From a virus: DNA of 64,000 bases. The stretch is taken from positions 248,001 through 312,000 of the IMG/VR virus record IMGVR_UViG_3300023202_000247. The stretch is one strand, 5' to 3'. Positions 4,365-60,743 of the stretch are shown here, piece after piece. The notes beneath the pieces were generated by a model. The model was not told the DNA's origin and searched no databases. It saw only the letters and a list, made by a program, of their open reading frames with translations. The position numbers and the translations under genes are program-made. Within the stretch, counting starts at the first letter, position 1, and every line of letters starts with the position of its first letter.

Positions 4365-5330
4365 ATGGTATCTTTTCCAACAGAACCTGGCGATTTATTT
4401 GATTTTGCAGGAAGCGTAGTAAAGGGAACGTCAAATCGTGGTTCCAGCGGTTTTGGTGCGCCCGTATTGCCGGCTCAGAACGGTAACTCTACGAGACAGG
4501 CTCAGATTCCAAATGAGCGAGCGGGTATTTATAAAAGAAATATGATGAGGTGGTTCGTTCCAGAGACGGGCATCGTTGAAATGTTTATCAACCCTCAAAA
4601 TGTAACATATCAATTAAAAAAAGATTTATCAGAACAACGTACAAAAGGCGGATACGTTGTTCAGTATTGGGGCGAAGCGTTGACCAACTTATCCATTCGC
4701 GGTACTACCGGTAGTAGTAGTATTGAAGGCATAAATGTTCTGGAGGATATTTATAGAGCCGAGCAAATTGCATATGATCCGTATGCGTTGGCATTGGCAT
4801 CTCAAAGAGATCGAGAAGTTAATGATCAATTTTCTGTTTTTGGAAGTTCTGATCTTGGTGGTTTGTTGAACGATGCTGGAAATACGTTTACTGATTTGGT
4901 TGGAAATGCGATTGAAACCGGTTCGTCAGCCTTAACAAGACAGCAACCAACTTTAGCATCTCTTGCTTTTAGTGTTGAATTATACTGGTCTGGTTGGGTA
5001 TTTAGAGGATTTTTTACAGATTTTACTGTCGAGGAGAGCGCAGAAAAGATAGGTTTATTTGATTATACTATGAATTTTAGAGTAACGCAGCGTCGTGGTT
5101 TGAGACTCAACTTCTTTCCATGGCACAGAAGTGCGGTCAATGGTCCAAGCAATTCGGATCCATCATTCGGAGTTCCTTATAGTTATGTTGATGAGGGTAG
5201 AAATGGTCCAGTGGTCTCGCCACCATCTCAAGAAAATGATGGTATATCATTAAGAGATACCTTTGATACAGGTACTGATTTTATCAAAGACCCGTTTGGA
5301 GCCGGTAGTGTAATCAGTTCCATTTTCTAA
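4365..5330 (+). CDS. Tail tube initiator or baseplate hub-proximal protein, putative
   Basis: This 321-residue protein follows the tape measure gene. Residues 60-130 hold the segment FINPQNVTYQLKKDLSEQR and then KGGYVVQYWGEALTNLSIRG. This resembles the small proteins between tape measure and hub in contractile phages (T4 gp53/gp54 or XkdP-type place), which join the tube to the baseplate hub. A second strand-rich block lies around residues 195-265 (LAFSVELYWSGWVFRGFF). The N- and C-termini are Gly/Ser/Asn-rich. No C-terminal LysM repeat is obvious. The start has no Shine-Dalgarno sequence. Its role is inferred mainly from gene order. Confidence 0.5.
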   Translation: MVSFPTEPGDLFDFAGSVVKGTSNRGSSGFGAPVLPAQNGNSTRQAQIPNERAGIYKRNMMRWFVPETGIVEMFINPQNVTYQLKKDLSEQRTKGGYVVQYWGEALTNLSIRGTTGSSSIEGINVLEDIYRAEQIAYDPYALALASQRDREVNDQFSVFGSSDLGGLLNDAGNTFTDLVGNAIETGSSALTRQQPTLASLAFSVELYWSGWVFRGFFTDFTVEESAEKIGLFDYTMNFRVTQRRGLRLNFFPWHRSAVNGPSNSDPSFGVPYSYVDEGRNGPVVSPPSQENDGISLRDTFDTGTDFIKDPFGAGSVISSIF

Positions 5331-8300: not shown

Positions 8301-10306
8301 AGGCTCAGTCTGGCGTTCAAGTATTTCCACAATTTTTAGAAAGTCTATTTTTCAATCAGCTTCAAGGTGTAACAAATCAAATTGAAATTGTTGAAGATGA
8401 GATAAGACTTAGGGCAACCGTGCTTGGCATAATAGGTGATTCAGCGATAGAACAATTCATACGTGGTTCGGGACAAAACTCAGTTGGCTCTTTCAATTTT
8501 ACTACTGATGAGGCAACTGGGAGATTTGGTGAAAAGGGTTTCAAAAACATGTTGCAGCAATCCAAACCAGAGTTCAGTGAAGAGCTAGTAAATGGTCCGT
8601 TGAAAGCAGCTGCTACAACGATTAACAATGCATTGAGACCAAACTCTTTATTTACAACTGTTTCAAGAGAAAATGCATTAGCAAATGTCAATTTTCAAGC
8701 GGCTCGTTCTCAAAATGCTGAAAATAGAATTTATGATATTAGAAAGCGATTGGAAAGATTTAAAGGTGTAAGGGCAAAATCTGAGCGCGACCTCATATCA
8801 GATGATAGATTTAGAAGAATAAATCAAATAAGTCAATTAGATTCTTTGAAGTTGGTAAATGAAATTGCAAATTATATAGCTGAAAGACAAAAGCTTTTAT
8901 TAAGCGCATCGAATGCAATAAAAAACTTGAGCGAAGGGGTTCTTTTAAACGAGGGAAACAAGGGTGCGACAGCTGCATTGTTTCCAAACCTATTTCGTAA
9001 CAAGGAAATACCATCAATCATCGAACACATGATTGAGGATGAGGATATTGATGACCTGGGTCCTGGTAGTGGTCAACGCTATGTAATTAAAGATAGAGAT
9101 ATAGTTAGGTATCAAACTGAAGAGGTTGCGCCTCCGTTTACATTGGTTGAGGTTAATGGATTGTTTGGTGAAGGTTTCGTAGATGCACCAACCAACTTGA
9201 GATTGACAAATGGTGGAGGAAATGCAGTTGTAAGTGCATTTGCTGTTGATTATGATATGTGGCGCATGTATGGGTTTAGATCAGAGAAAAGCGTTGCTGC
9301 CCCGTTCTTCAACAACCCAGATACACAATGTGCACCATATGCTGTTTATCTGCTTAATTTAGCTAGAAAAAATGTTATACAGGGAAGCATAACAGTTGCT
9401 GGCAATGAATACTATCAGCCTGGAGATGTTGTTTATATAGAAGATGAAGATATGTTGTTCTATGTAACTGACGTTGCTCATAACTTTGGCTGGAATTCAT
9501 TTTATACAACAACATTGACACTAAAATATGGTCACAAACCTGGAATATATATTCCAACTATATTGGATATCGTTGGAAAAATATTGTATAATAGTAGAGA
9601 ATCTTTTGGATACTTTAGAAATTCTAGATTTGATCATGCAAATTGTGATATACCAATCGGATCTTTGATATTTGACAATCATCCAACACAAGATGCTGGT
9701 ATTGATCAGTTGCTCAATGGTACAGCTGGACAACAAAATCAAACTGTTTTAAACAATTTACTTCTTAGTGTTAGTGGCGCACTAAACCCTGTTGGTTTTA
9801 GAAATGTTCAACCAAAGTTGGAGTTGAGGGTTTATTATAGCGGAAATGTTACTGGAGTTTCAAATGATGCTTTGGTAGACACCGCTGAGTCAGTTATAGA
9901 GTGGTTGAAAAATCCTGAACAAAAAGCTATAAATCCTGGTATACAATTGATGCCGGAAAAGAAAGATGAGTCTCAAGGATCATTTGGAATCAACGATGGA
10001 GAGGCTTCTGTTGTTACTGTGAACATATCTGAAAATGGCGAAAGAAGTCCTTCGAGCACTGCTTGGAACTCTGTAAGAAAACTTTTACGATCGAACGCTG
10101 CCCCTGGTTCTTTTGATTTTCCTGGTCAACCATCCAGGGCTCAGGATGAAATTTTGTCGAGACATGTTATCGATTTATGGATTACATTTGAAAGTGTTAT
10201 AGATACTCCTGAGACACGTGCTCCGGGACAAAGCGCTTTGTCTGAATATGAGCAAGGCATTCAAGAGCAGATTGACGATGCTAGAAAGAATAGAGCTGAT
10301 ACATAA
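5345..10306 (+). CDS. Giant baseplate hub-like structural protein
   Basis: At 1653 residues this is far larger than typical hub proteins (T4 gp27 has about 390). The C-terminal third contains the segment GDVVYIEDEDMLFYVTDVAH followed by TTTLTLKYGHKPGIY (about residues 1360-1405). This resembles the closing domain of gp27, gpD and XkdQ-type hub proteins. The upstream parts are helix-rich, with predicted coiled coils around residues 760-860 and 1140-1200. Gene order (initiator, hub, spike) supports a hub role. Its end overlaps the spike start by one base (TAATG), so translation is probably coupled. The large insertions may form extra baseplate parts. No peptidase or lysozyme motif was recognised. 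Confidence 0.6.
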   Translation: MSFLNDLGNIVNEQLGFGENTTSSLNTTDDGRTVNFGLLGDFANKFDQSAHRSYVIDGFVRNVRPRFREILWQNPDMTVVIKKRMFSSLIENFRLDLLSDDEQLFYRAAKRLFQNKCRALNIYEKLTKIEHVAKETGQVNSYLFPELLSGIAQLEQIPALSNLLSPETRSNIQRIRQVTRFSTASEQTNWVIDDQTPFMSETGEGTGVIELTLVTNVSTKASTEFGAGTASFSIEDPYKILSITDDDIDIAINDATNFFENSAFGRFTEQETQRLIDRLKNRLNTERQNRGASPVRFVVSPKTLISKRVRAIVEAEGREIRFQYNSGLVGLGSSVEIDSADVSPSERLGNEALSSSEARLFKDIISNLFLILGFRETSDTQIKEFKGETNHVRQKLRLHFSGKRAIQPMDIVNIFISTKSQPDDKITRGFEFESRGQSLGNKLDSLVNNINTSLQNLSGASDNGGNSYEDIERTLLAGADFPPWLWRLFRNDFTKQPAGTAVFVGLVKSASGGYDDGKYMVNISCEDNSGYLNKSQINIRPALDVFNGTLYDPLTPFKLSFDAATGSVVTDIQQGQFPELLDENKILLNSEAVRFKTTRLRGNRISDAAYRTQNVELESGGKFRNIIANPDGLVYRWKEGIQAITKTDRVSPDSSVLDERTPLLTDSPFAGQDVINVLSLLITGQPYNFNSFLKSAIANVNGPLASGASGDDLSRTYLDALTDDLTRRNAIWGNFVPFKKMVLDSAAEKFLRYEQADFVNKNTRIKQLQLERAKLMDQLALRNFSFARDNPAAPRDSNNQVQPQPDGTTVSTDDINIRNRINELHIEIELSRSDLQIQSDNILASKPEGQISLIGDDISLNPSFTDGNENSTSEEQRRKDKKEFRDKIDGLTRRRLWQTKANIDQNFLIIDDQYDNNGDIQAFSRGLSNALKLFESDYTTPSAQIQQVADILGLEVFANTQGHIEVRPPQYNRMPSSVFYNMFQQKAQSGVQVFPQFLESLFFNQLQGVTNQIEIVEDEIRLRATVLGIIGDSAIEQFIRGSGQNSVGSFNFTTDEATGRFGEKGFKNMLQQSKPEFSEELVNGPLKAAATTINNALRPNSLFTTVSRENALANVNFQAARSQNAENRIYDIRKRLERFKGVRAKSERDLISDDRFRRINQISQLDSLKLVNEIANYIAERQKLLLSASNAIKNLSEGVLLNEGNKGATAALFPNLFRNKEIPSIIEHMIEDEDIDDLGPGSGQRYVIKDRDIVRYQTEEVAPPFTLVEVNGLFGEGFVDAPTNLRLTNGGGNAVVSAFAVDYDMWRMYGFRSEKSVAAPFFNNPDTQCAPYAVYLLNLARKNVIQGSITVAGNEYYQPGDVVYIEDEDMLFYVTDVAHNFGWNSFYTTTLTLKYGHKPGIYIPTILDIVGKILYNSRESFGYFRNSRFDHANCDIPIGSLIFDNHPTQDAGIDQLLNGTAGQQNQTVLNNLLLSVSGALNPVGFRNVQPKLELRVYYSGNVTGVSNDALVDTAESVIEWLKNPEQKAINPGIQLMPEKKDESQGSFGINDGEASVVTVNISENGERSPSSTAWNSVRKLLRSNAAPGSFDFPGQPSRAQDEILSRHVIDLWITFESVIDTPETRAPGQSALSEYEQGIQEQIDDARKNRADT

Positions 10307-12354
10307 TGGCATATGATTCTGACAGTTTTAGCGTCGGTCCCATTCCGGGATTTGCCCGCGAGGGCACCGTAACTGGTGTCAACCTCAATCGCGGCACGAT
10401 GAATATCAAACTCAATCTTGCAAAAAGTGATAAACAAACTTTTCGTGATATAGAGGTTGAAATTCCCGCGGCGTGGACGGGTCCAAATGGAGAATGGGCC
10501 GGCGGTTGTCCAGCTAGAGGAAGTACTGTTTGGGCTGTACTAGCTACGGGTGGCAGGTGGACTGTTTTAAATTATGTTCCAAGCGATGGTGCATTTGGAA
10601 ATCGTAACACACCAGATAGTGGTTTTTCAACATCTAAAAACATTTTATCCTCCCTGAAGCCTGGTAGATATGTTTCACAGGTAAAAAATAATGTAAGGCA
10701 TTTACTTGACCCCAACATTGGAATCCAGTTTGGGTCTCCTGTTGATTTCGTTCATGCTGATCCTACAACACCAGTTTCTAAACGTAGTATTTATTCATAC
10801 AAGTTCAAGCAAAGTTTTGCATTTACTGATGCATCTAGAAAAATTGAAGGACCGGTAAAAAGAGACAAAGGTTCCAATAGCCTAAGAGATATTTCAGGTT
10901 CAGCTCTTACATCACACTCTTATGATTCGTCTTTAACAACTATAGGGTTGGATCCTGTTACAGCAGCAGGACCAGCATTTATAAGAAACCCACCTTTCAT
11001 CGAAAGCAGAAAAGTTGTTTATGAGTACTCTTTTAGTTATGGCTATACAACCGATAGTGAAGAGGCAGTTGAATACGATACAAATATTCCACCAGATATA
11101 AGTGAAACGTTTAAAAGGCGTGATAGCAGGGCTGATGCTTTGAGTCTTTCTTTGGTTGAGCCAAATCAACTGATGGAAAGGATAGCTGGAACAGTTGTTG
11201 ATATTTATGGAAACATTTTGGATATCAACAGAAACAAACTGCCCAACGGTTTGATTGATGAATTGAATTTAAAGTCCAATGCTGAAAACCAATCGGCAAC
11301 ATTTGTCAATTTGCTTGCGCAAACGCGAAAGAGCATTGCTTATCATTTTGAATTGAATGCAAGAAAGAGCGAAGTTCCAAGCAGAGGAAGTTATTTCCCG
11401 GAATCAGACTCTCTGATAGATTACGCTAGAGACAGAAGTAGATTATCATTCGATGTAGATAAGGAAGGTCAGTTCAAGCTCAATGTTCCAGCGTCAAGCG
11501 AGACGGGCAATGTTGGTTTGTTAACACGTTATGAAAATTATAGTACGTTAAAAGCATTTGAAGATGATACAGACCCTAGAAATTTTGTTAGAAATAGTAC
11601 CGAAACTGATATTTTTTTGGAAAGTTATGGTGTTGGAGTTGTAAGTTTGACGGGCGATGATCAGGCTTTAGAAGGTTTTGCAGCTCCTGTTGATCGTATC
11701 ACGGATACACCAATAAAACTTGGTACTGCTTATCATAACTTACAAGATACTTTACAAATTCACAATAGAAGCTTGGAAGGTGATGATCTTCTACCTGTTC
11801 AGGTTTATGCAGATAGTTTGTTGAATGACACTTCATTGATTCCACCACCTGGAGACGTTGTAACTCCAAACATCACCGTCTCTGGTCCAAACGCAAATGC
11901 TGGTGGTAGAAGTGGAACAATTAATTTTGATGGAATGATTAGTTGTAATGTTGGTGCAAACACGGTTGATCGACAGTCTTTGTGGTTCGATACGGCTGGA
12001 GGTATCGTTGCAAACGTTGGCAGAGATGTTTTTGATAGAAGCTTGGCGGCTCGTTTTGATGGAGATATATTGGTTCAAATAGGTGGAACCACCGTATCAA
12101 ACGATTCCAGATTTCAGAATTTGAACAATGGTGTTAAAGATGGTGTTTTAGATATAAGAGTTGTAAATAATGCTCAGATGCACATTGTAAGAATAGATAA
12201 AACCGGAGTGTCTATAGCATCGTCTGGTCGTTTGGATATTTTCTCAGCACAGGATATGAAGTTTACAGCTTTGGGTGATATGATATTTGACGCTGAAGGT
12301 ATTTATATGTATGGCAAGAGATGGATTAAGCGTGAAGGAACGAAGACTATTTGA
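10306..12354 (+). CDS. Baseplate central spike protein (gpV/gp5-like)
   Basis: In this 682-residue protein, residues 10-100 look like the OB-fold collar of spike proteins: IPGFAREGTVTGVNLNRGTM, then EVEIPAAWTGPNGEWAGGCPAR and a GxTVWAVL strand. The C-terminal 120 residues are short repeated strands (ILVQIGGTTV, LDIRVVNNAQMHIVRIDKTG, FTALGDMIFDAEGIYMYGK), as in the trimeric beta-helix that forms the membrane-piercing needle. The middle (about 100-540) is an unusual insertion without a recognised domain; no lysozyme motif was seen. It directly follows the hub-like gene with a TAATG overlap. The stop TGA lies within the TGATATATT element before the HNH gene. Confidence 0.7.
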   Translation: MAYDSDSFSVGPIPGFAREGTVTGVNLNRGTMNIKLNLAKSDKQTFRDIEVEIPAAWTGPNGEWAGGCPARGSTVWAVLATGGRWTVLNYVPSDGAFGNRNTPDSGFSTSKNILSSLKPGRYVSQVKNNVRHLLDPNIGIQFGSPVDFVHADPTTPVSKRSIYSYKFKQSFAFTDASRKIEGPVKRDKGSNSLRDISGSALTSHSYDSSLTTIGLDPVTAAGPAFIRNPPFIESRKVVYEYSFSYGYTTDSEEAVEYDTNIPPDISETFKRRDSRADALSLSLVEPNQLMERIAGTVVDIYGNILDINRNKLPNGLIDELNLKSNAENQSATFVNLLAQTRKSIAYHFELNARKSEVPSRGSYFPESDSLIDYARDRSRLSFDVDKEGQFKLNVPASSETGNVGLLTRYENYSTLKAFEDDTDPRNFVRNSTETDIFLESYGVGVVSLTGDDQALEGFAAPVDRITDTPIKLGTAYHNLQDTLQIHNRSLEGDDLLPVQVYADSLLNDTSLIPPPGDVVTPNITVSGPNANAGGRSGTINFDGMISCNVGANTVDRQSLWFDTAGGIVANVGRDVFDRSLAARFDGDILVQIGGTTVSNDSRFQNLNNGVKDGVLDIRVVNNAQMHIVRIDKTGVSIASSGRLDIFSAQDMKFTALGDMIFDAEGIYMYGKRWIKREGTKTI

Positions 12355-51286: not shown

Positions 51287-52206
51287 GATTACTGATAACT
51301 GGAAGTGGCGGATTTCTTGGTAAAAATGTCGTACCAAAATTTGCCAAAGAACAAAGTGTAACGCTATTGACACCTCGTAGCCGGGAACTCGATCTTCTCG
51401 ACCAAAGCTCTACGATGGTGTATTTCGAGCGTGAGCGGCCTGATGTAGTTTTGCACATGGCGGCTGTTTGCGGTGGTATCAAAGCAAATATGAAAGCGCC
51501 CGCGGACTTCATTCATCTCAATTCAGAGATGACTATAAATATATTTAACGCAATTAAAAAATTTGATGTAAAATCTCTCTACACTTTAGGTTCAGTTTGC
51601 TCTTATCCTTGTCATACACCGGTTCCATTTAAAGAGAAAAACATTTGGAATGGTTATCCTGAAGCAACAAATGCTCCATATGGAATTGCAAAGAGATTGC
51701 AAATGGAGATGCAAAAGCAGTATGCAGATCAATATGGGTTGAAAGGTGCACATCTCATACCTGTTAACTTGTTTGGGCCTCAGGACCTATTCGATTTAGA
51801 AAATAGTCACGTTATTCCAGCTTTGATAAACAAATTCGTTACAGCTGTTAAAAATAACAAACAGTCTGTAGAGTTGTGGGGTAGTGGGCAGGCGACTAGA
51901 GAGTTTTTGTATGTCGAAGATTGTGCACATGCGCTTCATAAAGCTGTCATGCTAGAATTAGATTATCCAGAACCAATAAACCTCGGAACTGGAGAATCAA
52001 TAAAAATAATTGATCTGGCAAATATAATAGCTGATATAGTAAAATATAGGGGTAATATAGTTACTACTGGTGATGTTAATGACGGGCAGCCTTTGAGGCA
52101 GCTCGACGTTTCACGTGCATATGAAACATTTGGTTTTCGTGCGCGAACCAGTTTGAGAGAAGGTTTGGAAAAAACCATAAAATGGTATGAGGAAAATTAT
52201 GAGTGA
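51283..52206 (+). CDS. fcl: GDP-L-fucose synthase
   Basis: This 307-residue SDR enzyme starts at TTG 51283, where TTGA overlaps the Gmd stop. It has LLITGSGGFLGKNVV (3-17) for NADPH binding and TPRSRELDLLD near 29-39. The Fcl-type HMAAVCGGIKANMK follows (about 63-76). The catalytic stretch has SVCSYPCHTPVPFKE and then APYGIAKRLQMEM with Y-x3-K. NLFGPQDLFD and GSGQATREFLYVED complete the GDP-fucose synthase pattern. It epimerises and reduces GDP-4-keto-6-deoxymannose to GDP-L-fucose, the donor for the GT10-like and GT11 enzymes in this window. The next gene starts inside its end. Confidence 0.93.
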   Translation: MRLLITGSGGFLGKNVVPKFAKEQSVTLLTPRSRELDLLDQSSTMVYFERERPDVVLHMAAVCGGIKANMKAPADFIHLNSEMTINIFNAIKKFDVKSLYTLGSVCSYPCHTPVPFKEKNIWNGYPEATNAPYGIAKRLQMEMQKQYADQYGLKGAHLIPVNLFGPQDLFDLENSHVIPALINKFVTAVKNNKQSVELWGSGQATREFLYVEDCAHALHKAVMLELDYPEPINLGTGESIKIIDLANIIADIVKYRGNIVTTGDVNDGQPLRQLDVSRAYETFGFRARTSLREGLEKTIKWYEENYE

Positions 52207-53698
52207 TGATAAAAATAAGACCTTGGCGGATAAATTGGCAGCTAAGATGCTTGAAAAGGACATTATAACAAAGTCAAAGTTTGAAGAGCAGGTTGTTGCT
52301 TTTTCTAGTTGGCCAAAAGAAACGTTGCAAAAAATTGAATCTTTTTTGTTTGACGGTAAGTCTAGTGATACCGGTGGAGTGGTAATCAATACAGGAACAG
52401 ATGATAAAGATAAAGCATCTTTAAAAGTTTCTGATTCTGGTGCCACTGTAGAGGCCGACAAAATTGATTTTTTTACCATCAAATTTGATTCGGATGGAAA
52501 CATAGTATCTAAATTTCCAGTTATGAGCAGGGAACAAGAATACAAGCTCATAGAGCGTTTCAAAAATGCATTAAGAGAACAACAAGAGTTACATTATGGT
52601 TCATCGGTTGAAGATGGCAGTTCTTTAAAAGATGTAGATATTCCAAAGCGTATAAAAAATTTGGTAAAAGATTCTTCTAGGAAGGCTGAGTTTAAAAATG
52701 ATGACGAACTATATGATAAGTTTTCTTTAGCTGAGTTGAAAGATTTAAAAGAGAAACTTTCTTTAGCTGAGTTGAAAGGTTTAAAAGAGAAACTTTCTTT
52801 GAATGATTTGAAAGAGATGAAAGATCCTGAACTTACTGAAACGCCTCTTGGCGATGCTAAAAAATACTTGGGTGATAAATCTTATACGCTTAAAGATGTT
52901 GATGATGGTAGAGTTATCAAACGAACTCTCAATTGGGAGTCTGATGCCAAGTGGTTCAAAAATCAATACCCTGGAGCATTCAGACGTTCCGATAATGGTG
53001 TTGCAAAAACTAGTAGCGAAGCAGTTGCTGGTATCGCCATTAAACCCGGTGAGCCATCACGATATGTAGTTGTTAATGGTGAAAAGAAAAGGGAAATTAA
53101 ACTAACGCCTGATAAAATGAAAGAGTCAAAATCGAAAACAATTGGTAAAAGCCGTGGTAGTTTGAGAAATGTTCAATCTGAAAGCGAATATAAAAAACGT
53201 GAAAATGAGCTAAAACAATCACTATCACAATGTGACGTTAAAGAGGTACAAGACGCTATTGATGACTTAAACCAAGTCGACCCTGTTCAAAAACATATTC
53301 AATCAGTATCAAACGGAAATAATCTTACTGATATTCTAGAAAGTGATGAAGACTTTAAAGATTTGTTGAAAGATTATTCATTTTTAGATGAGCAGAAAAA
53401 TACAACTAATCTTTTAGAAAAGCTTGAAGAGAAGATTGTTGAAGCAACTCGTGTTGAACTAAAGGCGAAACGTGAGTTATTTTTGTTAAATCGTGCATTG
53501 GAAGCCTCTTATGTTGCGGCTGAAAAAGAACCAGTTACGCTTGAGTTGCCCAAGCCTGTTGAAGTAAAACCAACATCTAAACAGTTTTTGGATACTTTCA
53601 AAGACATAACTGAAAGCGTTTTGGGTAAAGAATATCATTCTGGAGATGATTGGGAAAAGATTTATAATAGAAACAGATTAAGGCATATCAGAAAATAA
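52199..53698 (+). CDS. Charged coiled-coil protein with internal repeats, unknown
   Basis: The start is taken at ATG 52199 (overlapping the fucose synthase end, with GAGG upstream), giving 499 residues. It is Lys/Glu/Asp/Ser-rich, with long predicted helices. Three tandem 12-residue units (about residues 175-210) read FSLAELKDLKEK, LSLAELKGLKEK and LSLNDLKEMKDP. No enzyme motif was seen. The helical C-terminal part (about 395-450) has a coiled-coil pattern. Head scaffolds and prohead core proteins have this composition, but the neighbours are sugar and FtsZ-like genes, so no function can be claimed. Confidence 0.5.
   Translation: MSDDKNKTLADKLAAKMLEKDIITKSKFEEQVVAFSSWPKETLQKIESFLFDGKSSDTGGVVINTGTDDKDKASLKVSDSGATVEADKIDFFTIKFDSDGNIVSKFPVMSREQEYKLIERFKNALREQQELHYGSSVEDGSSLKDVDIPKRIKNLVKDSSRKAEFKNDDELYDKFSLAELKDLKEKLSLAELKGLKEKLSLNDLKEMKDPELTETPLGDAKKYLGDKSYTLKDVDDGRVIKRTLNWESDAKWFKNQYPGAFRRSDNGVAKTSSEAVAGIAIKPGEPSRYVVVNGEKKREIKLTPDKMKESKSKTIGKSRGSLRNVQSESEYKKRENELKQSLSQCDVKEVQDAIDDLNQVDPVQKHIQSVSNGNNLTDILESDEDFKDLLKDYSFLDEQKNTTNLLEKLEEKIVEATRVELKAKRELFLLNRALEASYVAAEKEPVTLELPKPVEVKPTSKQFLDTFKDITESVLGKEYHSGDDWEKIYNRNRLRHIRK
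52721..52828 (+). repeat. Tandem 36-base coding repeat, three units
   Basis: Units lie at 52721-52756, 52757-52792 and 52793-52828. The first two differ at two of 36 positions, and the third is more diverged. Each encodes 12 residues of the pattern (F/L)SLxxLKxxKxx in the gene at 52199, consistent with recent duplication that keeps frame and helical phase. Confidence 0.8.
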
Positions 53699-53718: not shown

Positions 53719-54687
53719 ATGAGTAAGAAAAAGAAAATACTAGTAACTGGTTCGTGTGGTTTCATATTTAGTAACTTTATGCGATATGCAATCACACAAC
53801 ATGATGTGAATTACAAATTCATAAGCGTTGACAAAGTTAAAAGTTCACGTGTGATGTACAATGTATTCTCAAATAAAAATCACACGTTCCACATTGGTGA
53901 TGTTGCGGATTCGCACTTCATGGATGTAGTATTTCAAGTTGAAGAACCTGATATAGTAATTCACGCGGCAGCTGAAAGTTTCGTGGATAGTTCTATAAAA
54001 AATGCGGACCCGTTTATTCATTCCAATGTTCGTGGAACACAAACTGTTATCGATGCTTGTGTAAAGTGGGGCGTGGAACGTTTAGTATATATTTCATCAG
54101 ATGAGATATATGGACAACTAACTAGTGAAGACGATCCTCCATGGCCCGAAACTGCACCAATGAATCCACGAAATCCATATAGTGCAACAAAAGCCGCAGG
54201 AGAGTTGTTGGTCAAAGCGGCTCATCAAACACATGGATTGAATTATAATATAACTCGTTGTTGTAATAATTATGGTCCAAGACAAGATCCTGAAAAGTTT
54301 CTTCCAAAGATAATTAAATGTGTTATCAACAATGAAAAGATACCAGTTTATGGTCAAGGTAGACAGGTAAGAGATTGGCTATATGTAAGTGATAATTGTA
54401 GGGCTGTTCTTGATATATTAGAAAAAGGAGCTATAAACGAAACTTATAATATTGCAGCTAATCAAGAATATTCTAATATAGAAATCTGTCAACTAGTATG
54501 CAATGCGCTTGGTAAAGGACATGATTTGATTGAATTTGTCGAGGATAGACCAGGACATGACTTTCGTTATAGTGTTGATTGTACAAAATTGAAAGGTATC
54601 GGTTGGGAGCCTGAATTCAAGTTCAAACAGGGATTGGAAGAGACTGCCAAGTGGTATATAAATAACAAAAGTTGGTTTTTGAAGTGA
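53719..54687 (+). CDS. NDP-sugar 4,6-dehydratase, RmlB-like
   Basis: This 322-residue SDR protein starts with ILVTGSCGFIFSNFMRYAI (7-25), in which the third glycine of the NAD loop is replaced by phenylalanine. It has IHAAAESFVDSSI (about 76-88) and the dehydratase signature ISSDEIYGQL (S-x-D-E-x-Y-G), in which D-E are the catalytic acid and base. NPYSATKAAGELL gives the Y-x3-K, and TRCCNNYGPRQDPEKFLPK is typical of dTDP-glucose 4,6-dehydratases. It is expected to make an NDP-4-keto-6-deoxy sugar; the nucleotide is not certain. It may feed the DegT aminotransferase. The start has no Shine-Dalgarno sequence. Confidence 0.85.
   Translation: MSKKKKILVTGSCGFIFSNFMRYAITQHDVNYKFISVDKVKSSRVMYNVFSNKNHTFHIGDVADSHFMDVVFQVEEPDIVIHAAAESFVDSSIKNADPFIHSNVRGTQTVIDACVKWGVERLVYISSDEIYGQLTSEDDPPWPETAPMNPRNPYSATKAAGELLVKAAHQTHGLNYNITRCCNNYGPRQDPEKFLPKIIKCVINNEKIPVYGQGRQVRDWLYVSDNCRAVLDILEKGAINETYNIAANQEYSNIEICQLVCNALGKGHDLIEFVEDRPGHDFRYSVDCTKLKGIGWEPEFKFKQGLEETAKWYINNKSWFLK
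54655..54664 (+). promoter_or_regulatory. Late-type promoter element TATATAAATA before the FtsZ-like gene
   Basis: TATATAAATA matches the core of the elements at 17526 and 50272. It lies in the last codons of the RmlB-like gene. With T4 spacing, transcription would begin near 54670 and give a leader of about 37 bases, which includes GGAG before ATG 54707. The core alone also occurs by chance inside genes, so support is moderate. Confidence 0.45.
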
Positions 54688-54706
54688 CCTTAAAAATGGA
54701 GAATGA

Positions 54707-56086
54707 ATGTCAACAAAAAGTGAAAAAGTAAAATCTGATGAGTCTTTGGTTGATGATGTTTCTGACGAGAACATCGAGGTCAGCGATGATGACTTAGAAC
54801 AGCAGAAAATGGAAAAGTTAAAAGCAAAATTAAAAGCAAAAGAAGACAGTGAAAAGAAAACAGAAGAGGGTACAGTGCCACCAAAAATAGTTGAGCCAAA
54901 AAAGCAAAGCATACGATTTGGAATTATCGGATCGGGTCAAGGTGGCTCCAGACTCGCAGAAGTATTTTATAAACTTGGTTATGATTCAATTGCTGTAAAC
55001 ACAGCTTCACAAGATTTACAAGGCATTGAAATGCCAGACTCCAATAAGCTTTTGCTTTCATATGGTCTGGGTGGTGCCGGCAAAGAGCTTGATATTGGAT
55101 ATGAGGCCGCTGAAGCTCATCGTGCGGCTATCAATGAGCTTGTCTATAACAAACTAAACGATGCAGAACTTTTGGTATTTTGCACCTCATTGGGTGGTGG
55201 TTCTGGTGCGGGTTCTGCTGAAGTTATCGTTGATATTTTATCCAAATTGGATCGTCCAGTTTGTGTAATTACCATTTTACCAATGAGCACGGATGACCCT
55301 CAAACTAAAGACAACGCAATCAAGACGTTGACAAAGTTTACAAATATGGTTAATTCTAGTGCAATTGATAATCTAATTGTTGTGGATAATGCAAGAATTG
55401 AAACTATATATAGTGATGTTGGTCCATTGAATTTCTTCAATGTTTCTAATAAAGCTATTGTTGAGCCAATTGATAAGTTCAATACCCTGTCTCACATGGC
55501 ATCTTCAGTAAAGCCATTGGATCCAACTGAGTTTGGAAAATTATTTACCGATGGTCGCGGGTTGACTATTTACGGTATGATGAAGGTTTATGATTTTGAA
55601 GAAGATACAGCTATTGCTGAGGCGGTGGTCGAAAACATGAGCGGAAGCTTACTGGCAAGTGGTTTTGATTTAAAGCAGGCTCGTTATGCTGGGGCAATTT
55701 TTACAGCACCGCGCAGAGTATGGGATAAGATTCCAAATGCTAGTGTTAACTATGCAAAAAGTATGGTTAATGATGTTTGCGGAAATCCAATTGGAACGTT
55801 CCATGGAATCTATGAGGTAGATGATGATGAAGATTGTGTCCGAGTATACTCTATGTTTTCGGGTCTCGGTCTGCCCGATGACCGTATCAAACAGCTTCGA
55901 GAAGATGCTAAAGAACGCATGGCTCAGGCAGCTGAAAAGGATGAGCATCGCAAGTTGACATTGAAAATTGATGCTCAAGAAGAAACTGTTAGTGCAGCAG
56001 ATGCTATAAAGAAAAAGATTGAGCGTAAAAAGAGCAAGTTTGGTAAGTTGCACAGTCGGGCTGTACAAGATAGACGAAAGAAGTAA
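54707..56086 (+). CDS. FtsZ/tubulin-like GTPase
   Basis: This 459-residue protein has the tubulin/FtsZ fold markers in order. T1 loop is GIIGSGQGGSRLAEVF (73-87). T3 is GLGGAGKELDIGYEAAEAH (120-138). The GTP signature CTSLGGGSGAGSAEV is at 159-173. T6-type VVDNARIETIY is near 225-235. A T7-like synergy loop lies near residue 270, where KPLDPTEFGKL replaces the usual N-x-D-x-x-D: the first Asn is Pro, and the acids are D and E. An acidic/charged 65-residue N-terminal extension and a basic C-terminal tail are added. At 459 residues it is larger than FtsZ (about 383) and PhuZ (about 315). It probably polymerises with GTP; the role (DNA centring, virion transport, blocking host division) is unknown. 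Confidence 0.88.
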   Translation: MSTKSEKVKSDESLVDDVSDENIEVSDDDLEQQKMEKLKAKLKAKEDSEKKTEEGTVPPKIVEPKKQSIRFGIIGSGQGGSRLAEVFYKLGYDSIAVNTASQDLQGIEMPDSNKLLLSYGLGGAGKELDIGYEAAEAHRAAINELVYNKLNDAELLVFCTSLGGGSGAGSAEVIVDILSKLDRPVCVITILPMSTDDPQTKDNAIKTLTKFTNMVNSSAIDNLIVVDNARIETIYSDVGPLNFFNVSNKAIVEPIDKFNTLSHMASSVKPLDPTEFGKLFTDGRGLTIYGMMKVYDFEEDTAIAEAVVENMSGSLLASGFDLKQARYAGAIFTAPRRVWDKIPNASVNYAKSMVNDVCGNPIGTFHGIYEVDDDEDCVRVYSMFSGLGLPDDRIKQLREDAKERMAQAAEKDEHRKLTLKIDAQEETVSAADAIKKKIERKKSKFGKLHSRAVQDRRKK

Positions 56087-56092
56087 TTTGTC

Positions 56093-57574
56093 ATGACTGT
56101 TACTATCATTCACGGTAGAAGCAGTTGCCAGGTGCGAGGGCTCGATGATTACGATATAATCAAAGAACTGGAAGAAGAGCTGTCGTTTGTGCTTCAAGGT
56201 GCTGAGCACATGAACCTTTTTAAAGGTTTTGAAAAGGACGGTAAATTCACGAAGTGGGACGGGGTTGTCAGCTTATTGAGCGGCAACCTTCGTTTTGCTC
56301 CGGGACTATTGTCACGAGTTGAAAGGTTTTTTCGAGAACGTGATATAGATTATGTCGTTGAGGACAACCGTCCGCGACTGACAACTGGACAAAGAATAGA
56401 CATATTACCGAAGCTGAAGGCTAGTGGTAAAACGCCTTATCCTTATCAATTAGATGCAGTAAAAAAAGCTGTCTCTGTTGAGCGTGGAATTATTCGTATC
56501 GGAACTGGGGGCGGCAAAACTGTCGTAGCCGCCCTTATCGTAGCGGAGATTGGTAAGCCGGCAGTTGTTTATGTTATTGGCAAAGATCTCTTATATCAAA
56601 TTCGATCTTTATTTCAGTCGTTGTTTGATGAGCCAATTGGAATCATTGGTGATGGCAAATGTGAGATTCACAGAATAAACATTGCAACGATTTGGTCGAT
56701 AGGCACCGCTCTCGGGTTGCGCAAACAAAAACGGGTCGAGGGCGAGGAAAAAGAGAAGCCTCCTCCGAAGGAGCATCATAAAGATATCAAGAAAATGTTG
56801 GCTCATACTGGCGTTCACATTCTAGATGAATGTCATCTTGCAGCTTGTGATACGGTACAGGGTATTTTTAAAACAGTTTGTACCGAACATATTTACGGTA
56901 TGAGCGCTTCTCCTTGGAGAGATGATGGTGCGGATCTCTTGATTGAGAATTATCTTGGGGAGAAGATTGTAGATATTGGGGCAAAATATCTTATAGATAA
57001 CGGGTATTTGGTTAAACCAACGATACGATTTCTCCCAGTAAAACCTCATCCATATAAATCAACCAAAAGTTACAAGAGGATATACTCGCAATATATCGTA
57101 AATAATCCTCATAGAAATGCGATGGTTATAAAGGCCGCTCAGAGGCTCGTAGAACAGGGTTTCAAGACTTTGGTACTCTTTCACACCATAAGCCACGGAA
57201 AAGCTTTATATAATGAACTGTCCAAGACTATACCGTGTGAAATTCTAAGTGGAAAAGATAATTCTGACGAACGTGAGCGTGTGAAGAAGCGTTTGGAAGA
57301 TGGGGAGATAAGTTTAGTACTTGCTTCTAAGATTTTCGATATTGGAGTTGATCTTCCCATCTTGAACGCACTCGTTACAGCTGGAGGCGGCAAGTCTTCC
57401 GTAAGAGCGCTTCAACGAATCGGTCGAGTAATCCGCCGCGCGCCGAATAAAGAAATGGCGGCTGTGATCGATTTTGCCGATCAAGCTCCATATTTGTTCT
57501 CGCATAGCGAGGCACGAAGAGATATTTACTCGCAGGAATTTGAAGTCAAATGGCCAAAAAAACAAGAACCTTAA
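56093..57574 (+). CDS. DEAD/H-box helicase, UvsW-like
   Basis: This 493-residue SF2 helicase has an N-terminal domain (1-100) like the UvsW nucleic acid binding part. Walker A is RIGTGGGKTVVAAL (135-148), the DECH box is VHILDECHLAA (241-251), and the SAS motif is GMSASPWRDDG. The second RecA domain has LVLFHTISHGKALY, SLVLASKIFDIGVDLP, and motif VI ALQRIGRVIRRAP. T4 UvsW is a recombination and fork-remodelling helicase of about 500 residues that switches replication mode. It starts seven bases after the FtsZ-like gene and its end overlaps the next gene by 25 bases. Confidence 0.88.
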   Translation: MTVTIIHGRSSCQVRGLDDYDIIKELEEELSFVLQGAEHMNLFKGFEKDGKFTKWDGVVSLLSGNLRFAPGLLSRVERFFRERDIDYVVEDNRPRLTTGQRIDILPKLKASGKTPYPYQLDAVKKAVSVERGIIRIGTGGGKTVVAALIVAEIGKPAVVYVIGKDLLYQIRSLFQSLFDEPIGIIGDGKCEIHRINIATIWSIGTALGLRKQKRVEGEEKEKPPPKEHHKDIKKMLAHTGVHILDECHLAACDTVQGIFKTVCTEHIYGMSASPWRDDGADLLIENYLGEKIVDIGAKYLIDNGYLVKPTIRFLPVKPHPYKSTKSYKRIYSQYIVNNPHRNAMVIKAAQRLVEQGFKTLVLFHTISHGKALYNELSKTIPCEILSGKDNSDERERVKKRLEDGEISLVLASKIFDIGVDLPILNALVTAGGGKSSVRALQRIGRVIRRAPNKEMAAVIDFADQAPYLFSHSEARRDIYSQEFEVKWPKKQEP

Positions 57575-58191
57575 CACTCGTCCCCGATAAAGTAAAAAGG
57601 CCCAGCGGGCTCAAAAAAGATGGTACACCAAACTTACATTGGAAAAAGTTTGAAAACCGATTGCGCACTTACTCTAAAGTTCCGCTAGAAGATTGGAAAG
57701 AGACAGAAGTACTAGCCTATATTCTTGATCGTTACGAAAAAGAATACGAAATTAATTTTACATTGTCATATAGCGGACCACCAACCAAATGTGGTGAAAT
57801 GTATTGCACACGGCGCATGATTGCAACTTTGGGAACTGAAGACCCAACCATTCTCAAAGAATACATAGATTGGGTCTATGATGATGTTATCAAAGTTCAA
57901 AAGTTACAACTTGAAAGTTTAGCCTTCTTTTTTACAGCTTCTCTTTGTAGAAAGTTCAAAACCGTTTACAGACAACGTAACAAGATTACAAAAGATACAA
58001 AGCTCAAAGATGAGTTTGTAAGTATCGTAACTGATAATGGTTTTGATGCCGAAACGTATGGAGACTTGGCATTTATGAAAATGGCCGTCGATACGGATTC
58101 AGAACGAGATGACGCTGAACAAATTACGATGTTACTCGATCAGCTGAAACAAAATGGATTGAATATAGATGTTTTAGATAGATTGGAATAA
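57550..58191 (+). CDS. Hypothetical replication-module protein
   Basis: This 213-residue protein starts at ATG 57550, 25 bases inside the helicase gene. It is basic at the N-terminus (AKKTRTLTLVPDKVKRPSG), then largely helical, with CGEMYCTRRM near residue 77 and a hydrophobic helix around 115-130. T4 gp59 (helicase loader) is of similar length, but no gp59 motif was recognised. Its place between a UvsW-like and a DnaC/DnaB-like set suggests a role in replication or recombination. No function is claimed. Confidence 0.5.
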   Translation: MAKKTRTLTLVPDKVKRPSGLKKDGTPNLHWKKFENRLRTYSKVPLEDWKETEVLAYILDRYEKEYEINFTLSYSGPPTKCGEMYCTRRMIATLGTEDPTILKEYIDWVYDDVIKVQKLQLESLAFFFTASLCRKFKTVYRQRNKITKDTKLKDEFVSIVTDNGFDAETYGDLAFMKMAVDTDSERDDAEQITMLLDQLKQNGLNIDVLDRLE

Positions 58192-58193
58192 TT

Positions 58194-58670
58194 ATGACAC
58201 CTAGTGAAAATGATCATGTAAAGATATTATTCAAAAATGGTGTAACATACAGCGGCATCGTTTTGTCCTGGTCGAAAGATGAAGCAGTTTTACGTGATTT
58301 TCACAGCAAGGATATTTCAATCATACACAATCCTCATATAAAAGCTCTTATTATAAAAATAGTAAGAGAAACGCCTGAAGAGGCAAAACAAATTTTTATC
58401 GATAAGCCGCTGGAGCTGGATGAACCAGAACGAGATCCTGGTCTTCGTGGAAAGAAATTGGCCGACTTGTATATGGCAAAGGCCGAAGCTGAGCGAGAAC
58501 GTTTTCGTAAAAAAATGAATTCGTTTGATAATACAGGAGCACAGGAAGTAAATTATGCAATACCAACAAGCCTTCAAAAACCCACTTTTGAACATTCCGA
58601 AGACCAAAACTACAGCAATGATTCAGAAGGTAATCAACTCTTTTCCGGAAGCGAATGGTTTAAAGATTAG
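58194..58670 (+). CDS. Hypothetical protein with possible LSm-like N-terminus
   Basis: In this 158-residue protein residues 8-53 read HVKILFKNGVTYSGIVLSWS, EAVLRDFHSKDISII and IKALIIKIV. The strand order and NG turn resemble an LSm/Hfq-like barrel. The rest is charged helix (about 60-110) and a polar tail. Overlap of 116 bases with the next gene is unusual and suggests regulated or coupled translation. The start lies two bases after the preceding stop. Fold assignment is a guess from pattern only. Confidence 0.5.
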   Translation: MTPSENDHVKILFKNGVTYSGIVLSWSKDEAVLRDFHSKDISIIHNPHIKALIIKIVRETPEEAKQIFIDKPLELDEPERDPGLRGKKLADLYMAKAEAERERFRKKMNSFDNTGAQEVNYAIPTSLQKPTFEHSEDQNYSNDSEGNQLFSGSEWFKD

Positions 58671-59277
58671 TGATGGATTGCCTGATGAGTGCCTTGTCGC
58701 AATTGATGGGTTGAATCGTTATGCTGAGGCAAACATACCCGTTGATTATTGGTTTTTGGATATGGAAGAGTTTAAGGGCGATTCCAATATAAAGAAGCAT
58801 TACGATAATATCACATCAGATTTTCGCAAGTCTTATGTTGATGGTATTCGCTACTGTTTCGCAGGTAAGCACGGGCGTGGTAAGACGATGGTTTGCGCGT
58901 GTGTTCTCAAAAAGGCTGTTGAAAAAGGTTACAGTGGACTTTACACAACTTTAAGTGACATAGTTGCTTTGATGGCATCACATGATGCTGATGGTAAGTA
59001 TACAGCAAGACAAGATTTATTGCAAGTAGACTTTCTCGTTATTGATGAATTCGACCCTCGTTTCATGGGTTCTACAAATTCTGCTGATTTGTTTGGTAGA
59101 ATTTTGGAATCAATTATCAGAGGTAGATTACAGAACAGAATGCCTACTATGCTTTGTACAAATAGTAAAGACGCAACATCAGCGTTTAGTGGTCCTCTCA
59201 AAGAGAGCATAGGAAGTTTGATGTATATGTTCAAAATAGTTCCGGTTCTAGGGAAGGATTTTAGAAAGGTTGATTGA
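58555..59277 (+). CDS. DnaC/IstB-like AAA+ ATPase, helicase loader candidate
   Basis: In this 240-residue protein Walker A is FAGKHGRGKTMVCACVL (102-118) and Walker B is DFLVIDEFDPRF (159-170). A sensor-like MLCTNSKDATSA follows near 200, as in DnaC and IstB proteins that load DnaB. The start ATG 58555 has AGGAAG upstream at optimal distance, so the long overlap with the previous gene seems real; a shorter start (58618) is possible. The C-terminus is adjacent, with overlap, to the DnaB-like helicase gene, which supports a loader role. T4 uses an unrelated loader (gp59), so this module differs from T4. Confidence 0.78.
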   Translation: MQYQQAFKNPLLNIPKTKTTAMIQKVINSFPEANGLKISDGLPDECLVAIDGLNRYAEANIPVDYWFLDMEEFKGDSNIKKHYDNITSDFRKSYVDGIRYCFAGKHGRGKTMVCACVLKKAVEKGYSGLYTTLSDIVALMASHDADGKYTARQDLLQVDFLVIDEFDPRFMGSTNSADLFGRILESIIRGRLQNRMPTMLCTNSKDATSAFSGPLKESIGSLMYMFKIVPVLGKDFRKVD

Positions 59278-60743
59278 TGAGCGATGAAATTGATTTGAGA
59301 ATATTCCGAACGATGATATCGGAGAGAAGCAAAGGGGTAGAGTTTGCTCTAACATATGATCATGACATGTTTTCTCCGGACTATCAACTCGTTGCAAAAA
59401 TGTGTATCGAGTATTTGAGAAAATATAGGGAAAGCCCTACTAAACGAACATTATCGGAATTTGCTGGAAGATCATATAAGCCGCGCATAGAGGAAGTTTG
59501 GGGAAAAGCAGAGGAAATTGATTATAGCGACAAAGAATTTGTATTCGATTTAAACAGACTCAAGTCCCGATATGAACAATTCATCATAAAAAAGATTTCG
59601 GATATAAGTGCTAACCCTGGAGAAAACGCAGAACGTGATATCAAGCTTTTGCTTCAAAAACTGAAAACTGTTAAAGATGGTCGCAAGTTTATTCAAAAAA
59701 CAGTTTCAGAAGGGTTGGACCAAGCTTCGCACGATTACGATCTCAAAAAGAAAAATCCGAAGTCAAACAAGAAAATACCTTGTGGCTTTTCGGCAATTGA
59801 CTTTGCCATGTCTGGCGGTCTTGCTCCGGGTGAGTTGTTTGTCGTTGGTGGAGAGACTGGTTCTGGTAAGTCCATGTTTCTGTTGAACATGGCAATTCAA
59901 ATATGGTTACAGGGAAACTCGATAGATACACCACCCGATGAAATGGTGGAGGGAAAGAATGTAACTTATTATAGTTTGGAAATGCCTTGGGAAGAATGTT
60001 TTGGAAGGCTCATTGCAAGATTGGCTCAAGTTCCAGAGGAAGATTATTCCAATGGTGATTTGAATATAGATCAAGAAATGCGCGTGGATAAAGCAAAGGC
60101 ATTTATTGAAAATTATCATTGGCAATTTGAAATTGTAGATATGCCACGAGGTATGACTCCTGATGAATTGGAATTGCGGCACGAGGATGCAAACTTGAAA
60201 TATGAGCCGCACGTCGTAGCTGTTGATTATCTGACCCTGATGAATTTGCCATCCAGCGAACAAGATTGGCTCAAAATGGGCACGTTGGCTGGAGCGTTGC
60301 ATGAATTTGCGCGCGCAAACAAGGTCATTGCCTTGAGTGGTGTTCAATTGAATGATGTTCAAAGAGGTGAAAAGAAAGATATCAAGAAAAAGGGAGAGAA
60401 GGGTGTGTTGGTTGGTGGTCATAGAATTGGACGTTCGAGTCAAATGCTTCACCATATCAACGCTTTCGTTCAAATAGAAACACGCCCTGATGAAGATATG
60501 TATGGAGATTTCAAATTTCACTACATCAAAAACCGTCGTGGTCCAAAACCACAGAACTGTACTTTGAAAAAGAATTTTACCAACAGTACTCTTACAGATA
60601 TTCCATATGTCTATAAAAAGCAAGAAACTAGCGATAATTCCGCATATAATGACGATCAAGATGATAATCTAAACAATGATATTTCTGAAAGTTTCAAAAA
60701 AGTAAAAGTAAAGATAGATAAAGATGAGCAAGAACCCGAATAA
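59277..60743 (+). CDS. DnaB-like replicative helicase
   Basis: The start is taken at ATG 59277 (the preceding TTG is open too), giving 488 residues. The N-terminal domain (1-140) is helical. The RecA-like core starts near 165 with KKIPCGFSAIDFAMSGGLAP and has Walker A VVGGETGSGKSMFLL (190-204). Walker B-like VVAVDYLTLMNLP is near 312-324. A DnaB-type motif (SGVQLNDVQRG) and RIGRSSQMLHHINAFVQIE follow. A T4 gp41-type phage enzyme has the same layout. The acidic C-terminus overlaps the next gene by 20 bases. It probably works with the DnaC-like protein upstream. No primase domain was seen. Confidence 0.87.
   Translation: MSDEIDLRIFRTMISERSKGVEFALTYDHDMFSPDYQLVAKMCIEYLRKYRESPTKRTLSEFAGRSYKPRIEEVWGKAEEIDYSDKEFVFDLNRLKSRYEQFIIKKISDISANPGENAERDIKLLLQKLKTVKDGRKFIQKTVSEGLDQASHDYDLKKKNPKSNKKIPCGFSAIDFAMSGGLAPGELFVVGGETGSGKSMFLLNMAIQIWLQGNSIDTPPDEMVEGKNVTYYSLEMPWEECFGRLIARLAQVPEEDYSNGDLNIDQEMRVDKAKAFIENYHWQFEIVDMPRGMTPDELELRHEDANLKYEPHVVAVDYLTLMNLPSSEQDWLKMGTLAGALHEFARANKVIALSGVQLNDVQRGEKKDIKKKGEKGVLVGGHRIGRSSQMLHHINAFVQIETRPDEDMYGDFKFHYIKNRRGPKPQNCTLKKNFTNSTLTDIPYVYKKQETSDNSAYNDDQDDNLNNDISESFKKVKVKIDKDEQEPE

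Follow-up and report, generated by a model that had tools for sequence, protein, structure and literature searches.

A TubZ-class tubulin homologue encoded beside the replication genes of a huge phage

The settings in which phage tubulins have been placed so far are plasmid-like partition, carried out by TubZ of phage c-st, and, in phages that form a nucleus, the spindle built by PhuZ. Reviews of jumbo-phage tubulins recognise two groups, TubZ (c-st) and PhuZ (PMC7950403, PMC7824862); a 2020 survey of huge phages assigned the tubulin homologues that it reported to PhuZ (PMC7162821), and a review from 2026 mentions PhuZ without TubZ (PMC13282480). The locus described here raises the question of which of these classes, if either, accounts for a tubulin-like gene found next to the replication genes of a huge phage, and what its product would do in the infected cell.

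The gene and its relatives

The window, that is, the whole stretch of 64,000 nt analysed here, covers bases 248001-312000 of a 321,461-bp IMG/VR virus record that derives from a metagenome and represents a huge phage; the whole record contains a single tubulin-family gene. This tubZ-like gene, whose product we denote P0001 (Table 1), is genuine: chance is ruled out as the source of the frame because full-length homologues with 37-52% identity are encoded in 8 other viral contigs (L033-L040). Two reverse-strand ORFs overlapping it (54493-54912 and 55670-56209) were rejected as mechanical and without support.

Judged by its sequence, P0001 belongs to the tubulin/FtsZ superfamily, and an earlier note, made from the nucleotide sequence alone, was correct in describing a GTP-binding protein of this kind. 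The Pfam family PF00091 (Tubulin) matches residues 82-235 (E=1e-15, 59 bits versus a cut-off of 33), and the glycine-rich T1 (G72..G80), T3 GGAGK (122-126), T4 and T6/H7 Asn248 motifs are all present, the T4 sequence GGGSGAG conforming to the GGGTGTG-like signature of TubZ. PF22453 (TubZ-like_C) matches residues 259-398 with a narrow pass (27.4 bits, cut-off 26) and is also matched by 10 of 13 relatives, at best with E=8e-12. The core of the protein, residues 68-400, is predicted with confidence in the AlphaFold model.

Table 1. Features of the tubZ-like locus (window coordinates)
Feature	Position	Strand	Basis
Nucleotide-sugar epimerase/dehydratase (GDP-mannose dehydratase/epimerase-type), last gene of sugar cluster	53719..54687	+	PF16363 E=2e-60
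Ribosome-binding site GGAGA, ATG 4 nt further on	54698..54702	+	sequence
tubZ-like gene (P0001), 459 aa / 459 codons	54707..56086	+	open frame with RBS, Pfam matches, homologues
N-terminal extension (residues 1-67), its first half acidic, with a charged helix at 27-52	54707..54907	+	alignments, model
GTPase domain, residues 68-235 (T1-T5)	54908..55411	+	PF00091; pLDDT >85 in nearly all model blocks
T4 signature 163-GGGSGAG-169	55193..55213	+	G164, G165, G167, G169 invariant in aligned TubZ and family
Helix H7 with T6 Asn248	55412..55492	+	N248 invariant in viral alignment A3; model helix 240-261
T7 loop P270-L-D272-P-T-E275	55514..55531	+	aligns with TubZ-Bt YDPSD, TubZ-Bc FDASE
C-terminal activation domain, residues 276-390	55532..55876	+	PF22453 match
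Helix H11 and basic tail, conserved tip residues 437-459 (SKFGKL...DRRKK)	55877..56083	+	alignment; model helix 391-425
SF2 helicase, UvsW-like	56093..57574	+	phrog_16 DNA helicase 2e-69; ResIII + Helicase_C
Conserved all-helical protein	57550..58191	+	7 relatives aligned; model pLDDT 85.5
DnaC-like helicase loader	58555..59277	+	phrog_50 E=1.5e-18
DnaB-like replicative helicase	59274..60743	+	phrog_19 E=4e-49

The viral contig search that gave the 8 homologues was queried with an alignment (A2) of P0001, gp138 of Bacillus phage G and two plasmid proteins; it additionally gave phage G, a contig whose protein is identical and two distant relatives at 30% identity (L041 and L042). An initial search of viral sequences queried only with P0001 gave no distant relatives, and neither did the search of genome contigs. 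The nine family sequences amount to about six independent lineages, L034/L035/L040 and L037/L038 being near-identical groups. The sole match in the public phage collection was gp138 of phage G (23.5%, 1e-18), and this collection held no isolate with a close family member. Plasmid matches were mostly to TubZ/RepX-type proteins, nearly all from Bacilli. UniProt contains one full-length relative with 52% identity, A0A6J5RW92 from an uncultured Caudovirales phage, annotated 'FtsZ Cell division GTPase', for which we found no study. The open-access literature (subscription journals were not covered) yielded no description of the family, and no experiments on its members were found in the literature.

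Two further loci were observed among the relatives of phage G tubZ. A 175-kb viral contig carries another tubZ of the phage G kind (L031:5698-7122, 66%), preceded by the small gene that also lies upstream of tubZ in phage G. The TubZ of an 898-kb Pontibacillus 'plasmid' (L020, NZ_CP062975) groups with that of phage G (100/99) and is encoded near SSB and ClpX genes; this replicon is possibly a phage-like megaplasmid, with a terminase-like match that is very weak (0.002).

Assignment to the TubZ class

By sequence, fold and profile comparison, P0001 is nearest to TubZ and not to FtsZ, PhuZ or CetZ. Compared with the PDB, the nine-member family profile matched TubZ of B. cereus best (4e-28, over the GTPase and C-terminal domains), with TubZ-Bt (2e-19), CetZ (3e-18) and FtsZ (2e-16) at lower ranks. 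Foldseek with the P0001 model placed TubZ protofilaments on top (3e-25; TM 0.67-0.68 by query and 0.73-0.77 by target) and CetZ below them. In profile-profile comparisons, the E values were 2e-35 for TubZ of the phage G/Pontibacillus type, 3e-30 for the TubZ-Bc type and 1e-28 for the Alicyclobacillus type, versus 3e-19 for CetZ, 7e-12 for FtsZ and 2e-11 for PhuZ, the last aligned on the GTPase half only. A phmmer search with phiKZ PhuZ gave no match in the phage genome. The earlier note had proposed structure prediction and phylogeny as a check: the predicted fold is nearest TubZ, and the P0001 family forms one clade (82/84; nine-member core, 99/98) in a 33-sequence tree, where PhuZ is set apart by a 100/100 branch but the backbone does not resolve the order of TubZ, CetZ and FtsZ.

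These comparisons bear on the idea, put forward in the same note, that the protein co-assembles with host FtsZ and blocks it. An antagonist that co-assembled with FtsZ or blocked it would stop division. Phage-encoded division inhibitors exist, and P0001 shares its superfamily with FtsZ. However, the profile match to FtsZ is weak when set against that to phage G type TubZ, the FtsZ-type N-x-D-x-x-D loop is replaced by PLDPTE, the catalytic motifs are kept, and neither an FtsZ-like C-terminal peptide nor an FtsZ-like binding feature was seen. We therefore regard an FtsZ antagonist as very unlikely.

The PLDPTE sequence had also been taken for an altered T7 synergy loop that may slow hydrolysis, a view that does not survive comparison. 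All the TubZ, FtsZ and CetZ sequences compared have the pattern D-x-x-[DE], D272 is invariant, and Glu occupies the last position in B. cereus TubZ (FDASEF), in CetZ (VDSSEI) and in alpha-tubulin as well. Because the pattern is superfamily-wide, an altered loop is ruled out, and with it the grounds for expecting hydrolysis to be slow. A non-polymerising or non-hydrolysing GTPase, to which the supposed T7 alteration had pointed without support from sequence comparison, is scarcely probable, given that the T7 residues are conserved and that both domains are conserved and predicted with confidence.

Gene order and the search for partner genes

The location of tubZ between a sugar cluster and replication genes, as previously noted, is confirmed by the flanking matches: the GDP-mannose-type gene ends 19 bp before tubZ, the UvsW-like helicase gene begins 6 bp after it, and genes for the DnaC-like loader and DnaB follow. 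This order is conserved. Each of the 8 relatives has the UvsW-like helicase gene after tubZ, directly or past a few variable genes, and a homologue of the all-helical protein is encoded downstream in 7 of the 8 (the stretch of L035 ends near there). Within the contig stretches examined, the DnaC-like loader was recognised in 5 and DnaB in 3 of the 8 relatives. A close homologue of the sugar gene (53-59%) is found upstream of tubZ in five of them, and L036-L038, in which another gene takes its place or it can hardly be recognised, still keep the order of tubZ and replication genes. Since the order survives this change, it is replication, and not sugar synthesis, with which tubZ is associated. 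By itself, being encoded within a replication operon points to no more than co-expression and does not identify a cargo.

Further upstream, a 36-nt tandem repeat (2.6 copies, window 52710-52817) lies in frame within the ORF 52187-53698.

In phage G and most of the plasmid tubZ loci compared, a small gene is located directly upstream of tubZ, the Pontibacillus locus being without one; in phage G and L031, its product has a winged-helix appearance, as read from the sequence, and weak PHROG matches. No TubR-like gene adjoins tubZ in the window or in the 8 relatives, among which L033 has a 161-aa ORF at the upstream position. Thus, with no adjacent TubR adaptor or centromere, the link from P0001 to DNA is missing. 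The family of the phage G upstream protein, phrog_7494, for which phage G and L031 served as positive controls, is absent from this record and from eight other tubZ-bearing records, all possibly incomplete. For TubR, which is highly divergent, phmmer searches of the genome with 8 TubR-position proteins from plasmids and phage G gave chance-level matches only (E at least 0.06). A candidate, g124524_124856, was rejected as bearing no resemblance to TubR by eye. No iteron array was found near tubZ, and the one strong non-coding array in a genome-wide scan looks CRISPR-like rather than like a centromere. Because neither TubR nor tubC iterons adjoin the gene, we class P0001 as a TubZ-like protein and not as a component of a TubZ-TubR-tubC partition system.

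Such a system is nevertheless the main alternative to a role in moving replicating DNA: classical partition would keep the phage extrachromosomal in pseudolysogeny, with TubR and the centromere located elsewhere and too divergent to recognise. The TubZ-class sequence of P0001, the partitioning of a plasmid prophage by phage c-st TubZ (PMC7950403) and the winged-helix-like small protein encoded upstream of tubZ in phage G and L031 all speak for it. The results for phrog_7494, the TubR-position proteins and iterons speak against it, as do the absence of a tyrosine integrase from the record and the adjacency of replication genes in 8 of 8 close homologues. We consider partition unlikely.

A second alternative, suggested by the huge-phage setting, is a spindle that centres the phage compartment or carries capsids, as PhuZ does in nucleus-forming phages (PMC13282480). 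However, chimallin (phrog_4795) was matched neither in the present record nor in 9 further ones, all possibly incomplete, by a search that found the positive controls phiKZ, 201phi2-1 and Aphrodite1, and the centring of a nucleus is unlikely for this reason. RNA polymerase beta-prime likewise had no match in the record, the phiKZ control itself being weak, and the phage carries a sigma-factor-like gene that suggests use of the host RNA polymerase. With PhuZ also falling in a separate clade and aligning over the GTPase half only, we hold a PhuZ-like spindle to be decidedly improbable.

The CRISPR-like array lies outside the window (L006:4687-5386; G000:C1:44687-45386) and has about 10 copies of GTAACAAAGGATGCTACGCTCCTTAAAGTTGTAGAC, spacers that vary irregularly in length between 30 and 46 nt, and a block of 200 nt that is duplicated exactly. 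Upstream of it, the ORF L006:1906-3921 (671 aa) has a PDB match to Cas12m (1e-24). One 35-nt spacer, present at L006:4876-4910 and 5089-5123, matches window positions 12161-12195 (minus strand) exactly, inside the ORF 10306-12354. This self-matching spacer is self-directed, or was acquired against related phages, or else is a sign of a chimeric record; Cas12m effectors can silence without cutting, which bears on the first of these readings. GC along the first 80 kb changes from 0.56 to about 0.38 with no sharp break, and the record starts with 120-nt tandem repeat units (L004:1-640; G000:C1:1-640).

Conserved termini and a proposed role

An N-terminal extension is found in 9 of 9 close members and measures 65 to 93 residues, although start codons are uncertain in some relatives; the phage G protein and the majority of plasmid TubZ lack it. 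The 65-residue acidic N-terminus of the earlier note is thus real and conserved as an extension, but its acidic stretch comprises only the first ~33 residues, and its net charge (-4 over 70 residues in P0001, -4 to +4 in relatives) is not conserved. The AlphaFold model has a helix at residues 27-52, with block pLDDT of about 44-69. Every family member ends in a basic C-terminal tail; contrary to the earlier note, this does not distinguish the family from TubZ, since the phage G and Pontibacillus proteins are basic-ended too. Within the tail tip, S443, G446, D455 and R457 are invariant in 9 family members, and no homologues of the tail were found in the PDB. In phage c-st TubZ, filament shape depends on the flexible tail, to which TubR and TubY also bind (PMC5322520); by analogy, the conserved tip suggests a conserved partner for P0001. 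The all-helical protein encoded at 57550-58191, which is modelled with confidence and has no Pfam or PHROG match and no PDB fold match better than E=0.7, is a possible candidate for such an adaptor. The earlier note was silent on the TubZ class, the conserved N-terminal helix and C-terminal tip, the conserved gene order and the absence of an adjacent TubR or tubC.

On balance, we think it probable, if narrowly, that P0001 is a TubZ-class cytomotive GTPase whose filaments position or move replicating phage DNA or replication foci via a tail-bound phage partner. Polymerisation, hydrolysis, partner binding and a DNA cargo are what we infer for it, and the DNA-positioning polymer considered in the earlier note would be its most likely role. 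GTP-bound subunits would join head to tail, and the active site of each would be completed by the T7 loop (D272/E275) of the subunit before it, a contact that would trigger hydrolysis and give dynamic filaments that treadmill or are dynamically unstable. The basic tail with its conserved tip, perhaps together with the N-terminal helix, would bind the phage partner, and the filaments would then move or position the cargo in the infected cell; phage DNA or replication foci are the likeliest cargo because tubZ is encoded beside replication genes. More tentatively, filaments of this class may operate in huge phages that form no nucleus and lack TubR and a centromere, with the tail tip (and N-terminal helix) tied directly to a protein of the replication machinery and replication foci as the cargo. 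Positioning of replicating phage DNA by P0001 would probably proceed in a manner not previously described.

A TubZ-class family beside huge-phage replication genes, with no chimallin or TubR found, would be a third setting for phage tubulins. It would make DNA organisation in large nucleus-free phages testable, for which the conserved termini provide concrete baits for the missing adaptor.

Among known systems, TubZ of Bacillus plasmids (TubZ-Bc, 4ei7; TubZ-Bt, 3m8k/2xka) resembles P0001 in its GTPase domain, TubZ-like C-terminal domain, long H11, T7 D-x-x-[DE] and flexible C-terminal tail; P0001 differs in its ~20% identity, the ~65-residue N-terminal extension, its own conserved tail tip and the lack of a small gene at the TubR position upstream. 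PhuZ of phiKZ and 201phi2-1 is a jumbo-phage tubulin too, but forms a separate long clade, aligns over the GTPase half only and occurs with chimallin, which was not found here. CetZ and FtsZ have the superfamily and the T7 pattern in common with P0001, whereas their profile matches (3e-19 and 7e-12) are weaker. The nearest named phage homologue is gp138 of Bacillus phage G ('putative FtsZ-like'), which, with its L031 relative, gives the best profile match and has a basic tail; unlike P0001, it is without the N-terminal extension, is directly preceded by the gene of a small winged-helix-like protein and has no helicase genes adjacent. Finally, A0A6J5RW92 is alike over its full length (52%) and is a member of the P0001 family already deposited, under an FtsZ label.
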